Source: Terrimicrobium sacchariphilum
GTDB taxonomy: Bacteria; Verrucomicrobiota; Verrucomicrobiia; Chthoniobacterales; Terrimicrobiaceae
Assembly (NCBI RefSeq): GCF_001613545.1
Contig: NZ_BDCO01000002.1
Span: forward strand, 2,418,001 to 2,482,000
Length of the DNA: 64,000 nt
Reading direction: 5' to 3'
Part shown: piece by piece, positions 52,251 to 56,588 of the stretch
Layout: each line of letters begins with the position of its first letter
Position numbering within the stretch: the first letter of the stretch is position 1
The notes under the pieces: generated by a model
Database searches by the model: none
What the model saw: the letters and a program-made list of their open reading frames with translations, nothing else
What the model was told of the DNA's origin: nothing
Made by a program: the position numbers and the translations under genes

Positions 52251-52679
52251 ATGGCCCTACGTGCTTTTTTCGCTCTCTTTGTATTGGCACTCGGTACGGC
52301 GGTGGCAGCGCCCCAGCGGTTTGAAGCCTCCACGCTGAAGTTTCTCTATCACGTCTCCCTCGAGGAGAAAAAAGGCGCGGTGATCGGCACCCTCGAGCGC
52401 AGCGAATACGGCGTGAACCGCGCCAAATACCGCTTCACCGGCCAATGGACCCCGCTGCCCGCTGGCGACAAGGGCAGGGGACTCCTCGTCACCTATCTCC
52501 CCAAGGATCTCAAGAAATACGGCGACCCGTACTCCTTTCCCACCGCCGGCAAGGACCTCATCTGGCGGCTCGTCCCCACCAAGGACGGCACTCGCCTCTA
52601 CGTCCGCACCACCAGCCGCATCTACTCCTCCCCGACGAAGTGGAAAGTCACCGAGCTCGTCTTCGAGCCTCAGGATTAG
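52251..52679 (+). CDS. Hypothetical exported protein
   Basis: A 142-residue protein with a Sec signal peptide (MALRAFFALFVLALGTAVAA). The mature part is beta-rich and basic (FLYHVSLEEKKGAVIGTLERSEYGVNRAKYRFTGQW, LIWRLVPTKDGTRLYVRTTSRIY). No family recognised and no motif of catalysis. It stands alone, facing the M56 gene with 12 bp between the stops. Confidence 0.7.
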   Translation: MALRAFFALFVLALGTAVAAPQRFEASTLKFLYHVSLEEKKGAVIGTLERSEYGVNRAKYRFTGQWTPLPAGDKGRGLLVTYLPKDLKKYGDPYSFPTAGKDLIWRLVPTKDGTRLYVRTTSRIYSSPTKWKVTELVFEPQD

Positions 52680-52691
52680 GGAATACGGCTG

Positions 52692-54545
52692 CTAGGGAAC
52701 GAGAAATAGCTTTCCCGTGTAGGGGCACCTCACCTCCGAACCGGAGGGAAGACCTCGGACATCGACGTAGCCCATATCGGGTGCGTGGGGGCTGGTAACG
52801 AATCCCAGTTTGTCGGGAACCGGCACGCCGGACGGCAGGTCCTTCGCGGCGCGAGCCGGGGGAGGATTGGCAGGCACCTCCGTGGTGTCGGCAGGGGTAA
52901 TCCGAGCGGTAATCAATGTGTAGAGAACGTGCTCGCCCTCCCGGCCTTCGGTCGCCTTGCCGCCGGGGAAGGCCGTCATGGATGGAGAGTCGGCATGCGA
53001 AAGGCCGCCCAAGACGATCGTTTCACCAGACCGGAGAACGGCCGTAGTCTGCATTTCCCGAGTGCGAAATACCGGCATGTTGATCGCCCCCGAGGTGTTG
53101 GCGGCAGGCCGCATAGCAGCTTGAATGGTATCTTCCTTGGGATCGGAGATTTTGGGCTTTGCACCTGCGTAGTCGACAAGGCCAAGCAGTTCCACCATGC
53201 GAGGCTTGAGGTTCAGGATGATCCGTTCGTCGTCCGCAACGAAAGGCTCGACCTCAAGAGTCAGGCCGACCGGCTCGCTCACAAATGCATTCGGGCTGGG
53301 CGGAGTCTGGTTGTCTGCTGGTGGGGAAAATTCCGACGGATAACGAAATTCGCGCACCACCTGAATGACGGCGCGCTGGCCGCTGCGAGTCGTGACTTTT
53401 GGCGAGGATGCAAGGTCTACGCCTTGGGCCTGGCTGAGGCTTTCGATGAGTTTCTCAAATGCTTCTTTCTTCAGAATGCTCTGAAATTGTCCAGGTGTGT
53501 TGCCGAAAAACTTCTCAGCGAGAGCCGGGGTCATTTCGATAAATTTCGCCCCGATTTCCACCCGGGACCCGGCATGGGAGGCGGCGGCCGGAGTTCCTTG
53601 TGGCGACTGGGATTTGGCGCTTGGTGAAAGCAGGGCCATCGCGCAGGTTCCCAAGGCTACAGCGATCACCACAGACCACCATCCGCGGGGATTAGCCAAC
53701 GCGAGATGCCGGATTCTCCGCGTCAGCCCGCGACGCGACTCCGCCATGCCGGTGCGCATATACCAGTGATCCGATGGCAGGGACGCGATGCGCAGGATGG
53801 CCTCACCGTAGTCCTCAGCGCGGGATCTCTCGTGAGAGAGCACCCATTCGTCGCAGGCCATCTCCATGTCAACCCGGCTCGTGCGCTCGGCCAGCCACAT
53901 GAGCGGATTGAACCAGTGCAGCGCCCGGACGACTTGAAAGCACCAGGACCAAAGCATGTCTCCACGGCAGATATGGCCCTTTTCGTGCAAAAGGATCCAA
54001 CGGAGGCTGGCCGGATCCAACCGGTCGGCCCAGCCGAGGGGTAGCAGGATCACCGGAGAAAAAAGACCGCACATCGCGGGACTGTGTATGAGATCCGATT
54101 CCCGGATCGATGTCCGGCGAGGCAGCGTAATGTCGGGAAGCGCACCGGTGACCGGAGTGCTTCGGTGAACGATCTGGAGCGTGCGCAGCCAGCGGACAGA
54201 CGCAGCCGTGAACAGGCAAAACGCTCCGGTCGCCCAGATGATGAATACCCATGGAACCACCGGGGCAGGCGTCGACGCAGGAGCGGACGTCGGAAGCGCG
54301 TCGTGGGAGGAGGGCAGAAAAACCGTGGCCACCACGGGCGGCAAATCATCGACCCTCGGCAGGACACCGGCAGGCGAGGGGAAGAGGGAAGGAATCACGA
54401 ACGCTACCAGCGGAAATATCCACAGGACAAATGCCGCTCGTGCTCCGAGAAGCTTTCTTGCCCAGGGAATAAAGGCCAATGCAAGCACAAGGGATGCCGT
54501 CCCTGCCACCGACGTCGTTCCGAGCCAATGCAGGAACATGCTCAC
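52692..54545 (-). CDS. M56 (BlaR1-like) metallopeptidase fused to a secretin-like domain
   Basis: A 617-residue membrane protein. The N-terminal half is a BlaR1/MecR1-type M56 peptidase: membrane segments near 10-28, 37-55, 97-118 and 291-308, zinc motif HEKGH (187-191) in WILLHEKGHICRGD, and RVDMEMACDEWVL, the usual third-ligand region. After the last membrane segment, instead of a penicillin-binding sensor, comes a domain (about 328-552) with the marks of a secretin family (PF00263-like) fold: VREFRYPSEF, LTLEVEPFVADDERIILNLKPRMVEL, VFRTREMQTTAVLRSGETIVLGGL. A 60-residue tail ends in VRCPYTGKLFLVP. It starts at GTG, overlapping the stop of the preceding gene, in an operon with a BlaI-type repressor. 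I infer a signalling protease sensing something in the periplasm. Confidence 0.85.
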   Translation of the reverse strand: MSMFLHWLGTTSVAGTASLVLALAFIPWARKLLGARAAFVLWIFPLVAFVIPSLFPSPAGVLPRVDDLPPVVATVFLPSSHDALPTSAPASTPAPVVPWVFIIWATGAFCLFTAASVRWLRTLQIVHRSTPVTGALPDITLPRRTSIRESDLIHSPAMCGLFSPVILLPLGWADRLDPASLRWILLHEKGHICRGDMLWSWCFQVVRALHWFNPLMWLAERTSRVDMEMACDEWVLSHERSRAEDYGEAILRIASLPSDHWYMRTGMAESRRGLTRRIRHLALANPRGWWSVVIAVALGTCAMALLSPSAKSQSPQGTPAAASHAGSRVEIGAKFIEMTPALAEKFFGNTPGQFQSILKKEAFEKLIESLSQAQGVDLASSPKVTTRSGQRAVIQVVREFRYPSEFSPPADNQTPPSPNAFVSEPVGLTLEVEPFVADDERIILNLKPRMVELLGLVDYAGAKPKISDPKEDTIQAAMRPAANTSGAINMPVFRTREMQTTAVLRSGETIVLGGLSHADSPSMTAFPGGKATEGREGEHVLYTLITARITPADTTEVPANPPPARAAKDLPSGVPVPDKLGFVTSPHAPDMGYVDVRGLPSGSEVRCPYTGKLFLVP

Positions 54546-55204
54546 GGTTCGTCCACCTCCCGCATGGTGATGAAAATAAACTGCGCGTTCGTTTTCTCCG
54601 TGGCCGGTGCGCTGTAAAACACGATCTGCCCGCGCGTCACCGTCAGATCGCTCTTGAACTCATTGCTCTGAAACGCGGGCTGCCAGACAGATCTGCCCGG
54701 AGCTTCCGGGTCGGGACAGTCAATAAACCCCTCGAGGCTCTTGAGCTTGATGGTGAGGGAGAGATTGATAACGCCGTCACCGAGCTCCGGCACAAATTCC
54801 ATGATCGTTCCCACCGGGGCGCTTTCAAACGCCGTGGGAACCGAGTTGGCGTTTTTCGAAGCGGAATATTCCGTCGGATATTGAAAATCCCGTACGTTCT
54901 GCACCGACGCCATCTTTCCGCTTAAAGCAATAACGCGCGTCGTGCTCGCCACTGTCGCGCCAACTCGTTTGAGGAGATCGAGGGCTTTTGCCGCCTGTTC
55001 CGGCGACAGGACTGCGGTGACACCAGAGGGTTTATCAGAGGTAATAGGAAATTCGATCGGTTCGAGACCTTCAGCCTGGCTCTTGGTCGCGCTCAAGGTG
55101 CGTACCTCGATTTCCACCATCTTGAGCGGATCGACCGCACCCGGGTAAGCAACACCCAACCCGGCAAGGAGGCACACCGTGCAGATTAAGAGCCTACTTT
55201 GCAT
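54542..55204 (-). CDS. Stand-alone secretin-like periplasmic protein
   Basis: A 220-residue exported protein (signal MQSRLLICTVCLLAGLGVAY). Its body is visibly related to the C-terminal sensor domain of the M56 protein that follows: VEIEVRTLSATKSQAEGL / VEIGAKFIEMTPALAEKF, VRDFQYPTEYS / VREFRYPSEFS, PVGTIMEFVPELGDGVINLSLTIKL / PVGLTLEVEPFVADDERIILNLKPR, and FQSNEFKSDLTVTRGQIVFYSA / FRTREMQTTAVLRSGETIVLGG. No membrane segment apart from the signal. The frame runs on upstream, but the ATG at 55204 is the one before the signal peptide. It overlaps blaI by 11 bp and the M56 gene by 4 bp. Confidence 0.8.
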   Translation of the reverse strand: MQSRLLICTVCLLAGLGVAYPGAVDPLKMVEIEVRTLSATKSQAEGLEPIEFPITSDKPSGVTAVLSPEQAAKALDLLKRVGATVASTTRVIALSGKMASVQNVRDFQYPTEYSASKNANSVPTAFESAPVGTIMEFVPELGDGVINLSLTIKLKSLEGFIDCPDPEAPGRSVWQPAFQSNEFKSDLTVTRGQIVFYSAPATEKTNAQFIFITMREVDEP

Positions 55205-55586
55205 CGCTTCGTCTCCCCTTCCGCTTAAGGATGTCCCGCAGCGTATCGATTTCCTCGGGCGAGAGATCCTGGGTTTCGCAGAAGTGGGCGAGCATGGGCG
55301 CGACGGCTCCGCCGAAGACGCGCTTGAGGAAGGATTCGCTTTCCTGCCGCACGCATTGCTCCTTGGGAATCCCGGCGTGATAGCGGAAGGCCCGGCCATC
55401 GGGGCGGGCGGCGAGGACGCCTTTGGCCACGAGCCTCGCGAGGAAGGTGTTGATCGTCTTTTGCTTCCAGTGCGTCCGGCTGGCGAGGCGATCCGCGATG
55501 TCCGCAGCGGTGAGCCCTTCCTCGGCCCAAACCTCGGAGGCGACCAGCCACTCGCTGTCGGAAATGGAGGGAATTTCAGAACTCAT
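55194..55586 (-). CDS. BlaI/MecI/CopY-family transcriptional repressor
   Basis: A 130-residue winged-helix repressor. ISDSEWLVASEVWAEEGLTAADIADRLASRTHWKQKTINTFLARLVAKGVLAARPDGRAFRYHAG matches the BlaI DNA-binding domain; the C-terminal helices (VRQESESFLKRVFGGAVAPMLAHF) make the dimer. In known systems the linked M56 protease leads to cleavage of this repressor when the sensor is triggered. A perfect CTACA-AA-TGTAG palindrome lies 23-34 bp upstream of its start. Confidence 0.93.
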   Translation of the reverse strand: MSSEIPSISDSEWLVASEVWAEEGLTAADIADRLASRTHWKQKTINTFLARLVAKGVLAARPDGRAFRYHAGIPKEQCVRQESESFLKRVFGGAVAPMLAHFCETQDLSPEEIDTLRDILKRKGRRSDAK

Positions 55587-55608
55587 CGAGTTGCGGGGAG
55601 TTCTAGTC

Positions 55609-55620
55609 CTACAAATGTAG
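55609..55620. promoter_or_regulatory. BlaI-type operator upstream of the repressor operon
   Basis: CTACA-AA-TGTAG is a perfect 12-bp palindrome containing TACA-N2-TGTA, the core of known BlaI/MecI operators. It is placed between a TTGACC hexamer (55629-55624) and a TAGAAC hexamer (55605-55600) on the minus strand, where a repressor would block RNA polymerase; TATTAT further upstream is another possible -10. Confidence 0.8.
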
Positions 55621-55682
55621 TCCGGTCAAGGCATAATATGTCTCATAAGACAAAAAGCTTAGGAAACGCTCAGTGGAGGAGA

Positions 55683-56588
55683 CTAAGCTTTCACCGAGCG
55701 CAGGCCGAGGTTGTCAAAGATGCGGCGGGTGGCGTCGGAGCGGTTGAGCGTGTAGAAATGGATGCCGCGTACGTTGTTTTCCAGCAGGTCGGCGCATTGC
55801 TCGGTGGCGTAGTGGACGCCTATGCGTTCGACCGCGGCGGGATCGTTCTGGCCGCGCTGGAGGGCGCGGAGGAGCTTGGCGGGAAATCGTGCTCCGGCGG
55901 CGAGCTCTGCCATGCGGCGCATGCCACCGAGCGAGGTGATCGGCATGATGCCCGCGATGATGGGGATGTTGATCCCGGCCAGCGAGCAGCGGTCGCGGAA
56001 GTCGAGGAAGTCGCGGTTGTCGAAGAAAAGCTGGGTGACGATGTAGTTGGCCCCGGCGTCGACCTTGGCCTTCAGGTAGTCCATCTCCAGGAGGCGGTTG
56101 GGCGTGGCGGGATGGCCCTCGGGGAATCCGGCGACGCCGATGCCGAAGCCGCGCGGGTCGGCGTGTTTGCCGCTGGCGTTGAACCGCGAGATGAAGCCGA
56201 CGAGATCGGCGGCGTGCTGAAAGGCGTCCCTGGAGCGATCGTAGCCTTCGCGCACCGGGGGATCCCCGGCGAGGGCGAGGATGTTGCCCACGCCCTCCTC
56301 GGCGTAGCGGGCGAGGATGCTCTCGATCTCGGCCTCCGTGTGGCACACGCAGGTGAGGTGCGGCACAGGGTTGAGCGAGGTCGTGCGCTTGATGCGCAGC
56401 ACGAGGTCATGCGTGAGGTCGCGGGTGGAGCCGCCTGCGCCGTAGGTGACGCTGACAAAGTCCGGGCGGTACGCCTCCAGCTCGCGAATGGTTTGGTACA
56501 GATTCTCCGAGGCCTCGGGAGTTTTCGGGGGGAAAAACTCAAAGGAGAACGTGGTCTCGGATTCGCGCAGGGTGTCCTCGATATGCAT
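55683..56588 (-). CDS. metF: Methylenetetrahydrofolate reductase
   Basis: MetF reduces 5,10-methylene-THF to 5-methyl-THF for methionine synthesis, using FAD. The 301-residue protein (from ATG 56588, MHIEDTLRESETTFSFEFFPPKT) has VSVTYGAGGSTRDLTHDLVLRIK, HLTCVCHTEAEIE, NILALAGDPP, GVAGFPEGHP and IVTQLFFDN, all typical. A frame with a longer N-terminus runs across the divergent methyltransferase promoter. No riboswitch-like leader is visible in the 85 bp upstream. Confidence 0.95.
   Translation of the reverse strand: MHIEDTLRESETTFSFEFFPPKTPEASENLYQTIRELEAYRPDFVSVTYGAGGSTRDLTHDLVLRIKRTTSLNPVPHLTCVCHTEAEIESILARYAEEGVGNILALAGDPPVREGYDRSRDAFQHAADLVGFISRFNASGKHADPRGFGIGVAGFPEGHPATPNRLLEMDYLKAKVDAGANYIVTQLFFDNRDFLDFRDRCSLAGINIPIIAGIMPITSLGGMRRMAELAAGARFPAKLLRALQRGQNDPAAVERIGVHYATEQCADLLENNVRGIHFYTLNRSDATRRIFDNLGLRSVKA

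Follow-up and report, generated by a model that had tools for sequence, protein, structure and literature searches.

In the 64,000-nucleotide (nt) stretch of Terrimicrobium sacchariphilum DNA analysed here (contig NZ_BDCO01000002.1, positions 2,418,001 to 2,482,000; hereafter the window, numbered from its first letter), a minus-strand operon encodes a BlaI/MecI-type repressor, an exported secretin-like protein and an M56 protease whose outer tail is related to that exported protein. It is a genuine, recurrent variant of the BlaI/M56 antirepressor kind and has apparently not been described before: no paper pairing 'secretin domain' with 'peptidase M56' was found in the open literature searched. 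Known inputs of BlaI/BlaR1-type switches are few, namely beta-lactams and copper. A recurrent Verrucomicrobial switch with a loop-stripped secretin C-domain as its input domain would suggest that a channel fold has been reused as a receptor domain. On balance, we lean towards a BlaR1-type sensor and antirepressor for an envelope ligand, with the sensor-related free copy binding or handling the same ligand.

Operon structure and the M56 protease

Open reading frames (ORFs) and Pfam matches above the curated cut-offs confirmed the three overlapping genes proposed in a first-pass annotation made from the sequence. The repressor and free protein genes overlap by 11 nt, and the free protein and M56 genes by 4 nt. 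The one operon gene that is not regulatory encodes the free secretin-derived protein, of 220 amino acids (aa). The operon contains no further gene, its downstream neighbour being convergent. Features were assigned as follows.

55194-55586, minus strand: BlaI/MecI-type repressor, 130 aa (PF03965, Penicillinase_R, 8.1e-31; MecI in PDB, 1.7e-18)
54542-55204, minus strand: free exported secretin-derived protein, 220 aa, with an N-terminal signal-like helix (PF00263, 2.8e-9; AlphaFold2 model)
52692-54545, minus strand: M56 protease-receptor, 617 aa, GTG start (Pfam, AlphaFold2 model, PDB fold matches)
53706-54545, minus strand: M56/BlaR1-like membrane and zinc-protease part, residues 1-280 (PF05569, 1.6e-46 over residues 8-280; BlaR1 8exs, Z 20.2)
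53973-53987, minus strand: HEKGH zinc motif, H187, E188 and H191 (residue check)
52887-53573, minus strand: secretin-derived extracytoplasmic domain of the M56 protein, residues 325-553 (PF00263, 1.7e-17; Z about 11.3 to GspD/pIV)
52695-52850, minus strand: conserved C-terminal module of about 50 aa in the M56 protein, residues 566-617 (no Pfam family; high model confidence)
55609-55620, minus strand: operator-like palindrome CTACA-AA-TGTAG (TACA-N2-TGTA, BlaI/MecI/CopY type; operator class according to PMC7253601)
52692-55662, no strand: accessory block comprising operon and operator (absent in two congeneric genomes)

The AlphaFold2 model of the M56 protein had a predicted local distance difference test score (pLDDT) of 83. 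Residues 4-276 matched Staphylococcus aureus BlaR1 (8exs) with Z 20.2 over 242 residues, and Foldseek returned 8exr with TMt 0.70. The catalytic residues named for BlaR1 (PMC9834060) were all present (H187-E188-xx-H191, D196, E228xxxD232, Y246 and R271/R272), and residue checks and fold agreed with the first-pass description of four hydrophobic membrane segments and HEKGH as in BlaR1. That description had also found no penicillin-binding motifs after the last helix, and rightly so: Pfam reported only M56, Secretin and a sub-threshold M48 match for the protein, with no penicillin-binding domain, and the SxxK/SxN/KTG set was not found in it. The protein scored 98.3 bits against the NCBIfam model blaR1_generic, below the cut-off of 400. 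The 4.75-Mb host genome holds five M56 and five BlaI genes, each M56 gene lying close downstream of a BlaI gene. A secretin-like tail was present only in the M56 protein of the window; the other four carry unrelated tails, by inspection ankyrin-like or carboxypeptidase-regulatory-like, for example.

Secretin similarity of the tail and the free protein

The M56 tail matched PF00263 at 1.7e-17 (63.9 bits against a cut-off of 27.5; residues 370-518, profile positions 2-125 of 169), and the free protein matched the same family at 2.8e-9 (37.2 bits against the same cut-off; profile positions 8-117 of 169). Compared directly, the two gave E 3e-13 with 34% identity over 110 aa, so the block-by-block resemblance reported earlier was not due to chance. 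Fold comparison agreed with the earlier view that the M56 sensor carries a secretin-like domain: the model of residues 325-553 retrieved secretins (GspD/pIV) with Z about 11.3, and that of the free protein (pLDDT 86.4) retrieved PDB secretins with Z 8.8-11.5, phage pIV being tied among the top matches and the next unrelated row standing at 5.4. No non-secretin fold came close to the secretin-like parts in the PDB lists, where the next rows had Z 5-7 (Ail, a de novo beta protein).

The nearest NCBIfam secretin family for the tail was NF042912 (Akkermansia pilus secretin Amuc_1098; 1.7e-36), although neither the tail (125.6 bits) nor the free protein (37 bits) reached its cut-off of 750. The tail was most similar to an Amuc_1098/PilQ-type secretin from its own genome (47% identity across residues 32-196 of the tail query); the PilQ/Amuc_1098-like secretins of the host lie at C3:500881-504117. 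The secretin part directly follows either the fourth transmembrane segment (TM4) or the signal peptide, and Pfam reported neither an STN nor any other N-domain.

Absence of the membrane-insertion loop

Secretins require an amphipathic helical loop for membrane insertion (PMC8134430; also PMC6532946). In the alignment, a VPxLGDIPxxGxLF stretch between the last two strands, which by position appears to be this loop, was kept in true secretins and absent from the M56 tails and the stand-alone proteins. The motif was counted in 110 of 111 long secretins, in none of seven fusions and in none of 14 stand-alones. Correspondingly, in the reduced proteins the PF00263 match broke off at position 117-129 of the 169-position profile, or sooner, as against 166-169 in real secretins. 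In a tree of 31 domains, the true secretins formed one group (support 97/98) containing none of the fusions or stand-alones; the operon's own M56 tail and free protein were sisters (94/71), a placement of moderate trust given their long branches. Because the amphipathic helical loop is missing, the tail and the free protein are probably soluble rather than pore-forming, and the reduced domain is probably a soluble derivative of a secretin and not a pore.

Loop-less secretin-like exported proteins were also seen as tandem or adjacent pairs with no BlaI or M56 gene nearby, at L216:3127-4739, L218:4702-6369, L219:4540-6587 and L047; these paired proteins are annotated as PF00263 at best. Proteins of this type make up a defined group that Pfam lumps with real secretins, which would mislead the annotation of pili and secretion systems.

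The repressor and its putative operator

The repressor scored 107.2 bits against Penicillinase_R (curated cut-off 22.6) and aligned with MecI over its full length without gaps (PDB sequence match 1.7e-18). At the position of the MecI/BlaI cleavage site, N101-F102 (PMC9834060), it has His101-Phe102; Phe102 is thus kept and Asn101 replaced by His.

The palindrome CTACAAATGTAG at 55609-55620 is the perfect CTACA-AA-TGTAG operator of the first-pass annotation; its distance from the BlaI ATG was measured as 22 bp instead of 23 bp. CTACANNTGTAG occurred once in the window, against 0.01 occurrences expected by chance, and TACA-N2-TGTA sequences were also found before related BlaI genes. For CopY, the TACA-N2-TGTA 10-mer alone is insufficient (PMC7253601). 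When the 4.75-Mb genome was searched for the 14-bp palindrome ACTACANNTGTAGT with at most one mismatch, only three sites were found, all upstream of BlaI genes and two of them preceding another BlaI than that of the window; at this stringency no operator preceded any secretin gene. Sites with two mismatches, searched across the genome for other regulated genes, lay mostly inside ORFs and showed no pattern. A TTGACC hexamer resembling a -35 element is located just upstream of the operator (55624-55629), where a promoter may lie; a sigma-70 promoter scan reported none at the operator. From this arrangement, BlaI would repress its own operon through the TACA-N2-TGTA operator. Since all three close operator matches precede BlaI genes and the operon contains no other gene, the free copy is the likeliest regulated output apart from the two regulators, by analogy with the beta-lactamase of bla systems.

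Upstream of BlaI at L050 and L053, two GCTAAAnnTTTAGC-like palindromes were found at about -57 and -14 in place of TACA-N2-TGTA. They represent a different class of BlaI operator, which is partly present upstream of BlaI in L086 too.

Distribution of M56-secretin fusions

The search for fusions covered 213 Chthoniobacterales genomes and 388 from the phylum; three candidates were scored per genome in the phylum search, and the resulting count is a lower bound. At least seven M56-secretin fusions were found in Verrucomicrobiota: that of the window, L050 (a metagenome-assembled genome of Chthoniobacteraceae), L053 (Chthoniobacter flavus Ellin428) and L114-L117. A BlaI gene stood beside the M56 gene in all seven, only the free secretin-like gene intervening in the window, so the adjacency raised as a check on the first-pass proposal held throughout. 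All six other fusion genomes hold true secretins. The C-terminal extras of the receptors differ, with the 50-aa module in the window, an LptA/LptD_N-like domain in L050, and STN-like and LptA-like domains in L053. In C. flavus (L053:4770-9472), BlaI is followed by a 1079-aa M56-secretin-STN-LptA-like receptor and then by a 405-aa exported protein, which is a paralogue of the distal part of the receptor's own tail (E 4e-43). This is a second case of a receptor accompanied by a free version of some of its outer region.

The fusions may or may not share a single origin: about five label changes are required on the tree, whose deep forks are weak. A query of the genome contigs with the whole M56 protein found no relative, and a later domain scan of the contigs returned mostly true secretins and two known fusions.

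Three loci showed other arrangements. At L117:3977-5762 (G395), the secretin-like tail of the M56 protein is split by a frameshift, which is either a real pseudogene or an assembly error. An M56 variant at L118:3319-5117 (G425) has, by inspection, an STN-like (secretin/TonB N-terminal) tail, and at L124:3101-6916 (G386) BlaI precedes a tandem pair of M56 genes whose tails are related.

The C-terminal module

Beyond the secretin domain, residues 566-617 or thereabouts of the M56 protein form a separate conserved module that the first-pass annotation had missed. It was modelled by AlphaFold2 with high confidence as a separate unit (pLDDT about 92-95), and no Pfam family covers it. It is 60-70% identical to the C-terminus of lipoprotein-like proteins of about 140-170 aa found across the order, one of which is encoded in single copy elsewhere in the host genome. 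The module (consensus GTPVPGKPGFVTSPxxPxxGYVDVRGxPxGxEVxxPYxGKxFLVP) ends, for example, the small lipoprotein-like protein at L083:1498-1947 (minus strand). It was present in 28 of the 388 genomes sampled from the phylum, among them all 11 that belong to the order, and some other families of the class carry it at least twice. The module may target or anchor the outer part of the receptor where those lipoproteins sit.

Presence and absence of the cassette

In two congeneric genomes (L222 and L223), the flanking genes were 92-99% identical and the block of operon and operator was missing, so that the whole block is present or absent as a unit between congeners. DNA identity to the congeners stopped at 52686/52692 and resumed at 55662/55681. 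The slot (52679-55683), between a 142-aa gene and metF, holds other, unrelated sequence in L222 and L223, with a probable ORF resembling tetratricopeptide repeat proteins in L223, and is a small variable site. The GC content of the operon equals that of the window, giving no compositional sign of recent import; a PADLOC defence search gave no match, and no phage or defence genes were noticed adjoining the operon. The cassette is small (2.97 kb), with a single obvious operator and a single obvious output, and close relatives differ naturally in whether they carry it; its ligand, proteolysis and regulon can therefore be tested directly.

Proposed mechanism and alternatives

We propose a self-contained, autoregulated signalling cassette of BlaR1/BlaI design. 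The M56 protein would be an inner-membrane protein whose zinc site faces the cytoplasm and whose soluble secretin-derived domain lies outside TM4, a topology taken from BlaR1; this domain would stem from the C-domain of a Verrucomicrobial pilus-type secretin and be followed by the 50-aa module. Binding of an envelope ligand to the secretin-derived domain would activate the protease, which would cut BlaI at His101-Phe102 and release the operon. The main regulated product would be the free exported copy of the sensor domain. In bla and mec systems the output, a beta-lactamase or a penicillin-binding protein, is related in fold to the sensor domain of the receptor; the OXA (class D beta-lactamase) domain family includes BlaR homologues (PMC9045261). 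By analogy, the free protein most likely acts upon the sensor's ligand or sequesters it, and would thereby also shut off the signal.

The first-pass idea of a BlaI/BlaR1-type switch with a secretin-fold extracytoplasmic domain is supported, as structure searches placed the C-terminal domain in no unrelated fold and BlaI and M56 genes co-occur in relatives. The inputs it named, secretin assembly and the state of the outer membrane or peptidoglycan, are candidates. As it suggested, the free copy may act as decoy, co-sensor or ligand; operon position and the operator census favour it as the regulated output. Several points weigh against the sensor and antirepressor proposed here. The free copy is not a constant component of the circuit, since no sensor-like gene accompanies five of the seven fusions; BlaI may have further targets with weaker operators; the tree is weak in its deep forks and has long branches; and true secretins were among the sequences aligned for AlphaFold2, which makes the fold evidence partly dependent on homology.

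The receptor might instead monitor secretin assembly, as also suggested earlier, its domain pairing with unassembled subunits of the genome's own pilus-type or type II secretion system-type secretins and the free copy serving as co-sensor or chaperone-like competitor. The kinship of the tail with an Amuc_1098/PilQ-type secretin of its own genome (47%; NF042912, E 1.7e-36) fits this, as do the true secretins in all six other fusion genomes and the retained strands, which would be those that form the inter-subunit sheets of secretins. Secretins are, however, common throughout the relatives, so that finding both together is not informative; fusions and stand-alones lie outside the true-secretin clade (97/98), and their pairing surfaces may thus have drifted; and no secretin gene has an operator at one mismatch or fewer. 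We regard assembly monitoring as unlikely. An interference role, in which the free protein is induced to poison or plug secretin or pilus pores (its own, those of filamentous phage or those of rivals) and the receptor detects the same pores, would suit an accessory cassette in a variable slot and a free copy that lacks the membrane-insertion loop and keeps the inter-strand core, as a dominant-negative subunit would. Phage pIV tied for a place among the best structural matches, and the M56 tail matched phrog_1012 (protein IV of M13) at 4.2e-10, but the pIV match reflects general secretin homology only; with no PADLOC match and no phage or defence genes noticed alongside, interference seems very unlikely. 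It is likewise improbable that the receptor recognises secretin or pilus pore subunits, own or foreign, through an insertion-deficient mimic while the secreted free mimic blocks or corrects pore assembly; if it did, the operon would serve specifically to monitor and control the secretins of the outer membrane.

The signal could also enter through the M56/membrane part or the 50-aa module, leaving the secretin-derived domain as a periplasmic spacer or dimerisation piece. In the PetRP copper switch the signal may act on the protease itself, PetP being reported as a BlaR1-like protease with proposed copper-dependent activity (PMC7896320); the tails of the four remaining M56 proteins of the genome are unrelated, and the terminal module, well folded in the model, shows strong conservation elsewhere. 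Yet the secretin-derived domain recurs in seven fusions whose C-terminal extras vary (50-aa module, LptA-like, STN-like), and the operon of the window has retained a free copy of the domain; a mere spacer would need neither the recurrence nor the free copy, and we consider a spacer role distinctly unlikely.

Comparison with described systems

The proposed sensor and antirepressor shares with BlaR1-BlaI and MecR1-MecI (Staphylococcus, Bacillus) a BlaI-family repressor, an M56 protease with the named catalytic residues, four membrane segments, a C-terminal extracytoplasmic domain, a TACA-N2-TGTA operator-like sequence and a probable output fold-related to the sensor domain. It differs in that the sensor is secretin-derived, is followed by the 50-aa module and contains no penicillin-binding domain, in that the operon has neither a beta-lactamase nor a penicillin-binding protein, and in the low blaR1_generic score (98 against 400). 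PetR-PetP of Synechocystis is similar in that a BlaI-type regulator is degraded by a BlaR1-like protease on a non-beta-lactam signal; its input is copper and its targets are petE and petJ, and no secretin domain is reported in the available part of the source (PMC7896320).

With the secretins PilQ/Amuc_1098, GspD and pIV (PF00263), the proteins of the window share the sequence and predicted fold of the C-domain. Unlike these, they have no N-domains and no amphipathic helical loop, fall outside the true-secretin clade, and carry the domain either attached to an M56 membrane protease or free. The C. flavus locus (L053) likewise has the order BlaI-M56-secretin and, after it, a gene for an exported protein paralogous to the outer tail of its receptor. 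It differs in that the tail has STN-like repeats and an LptA/OstA-like domain, the operator-like repeat is GCTAAAnnTTTAGC, and the free gene copies the distal domains and not the secretin part.

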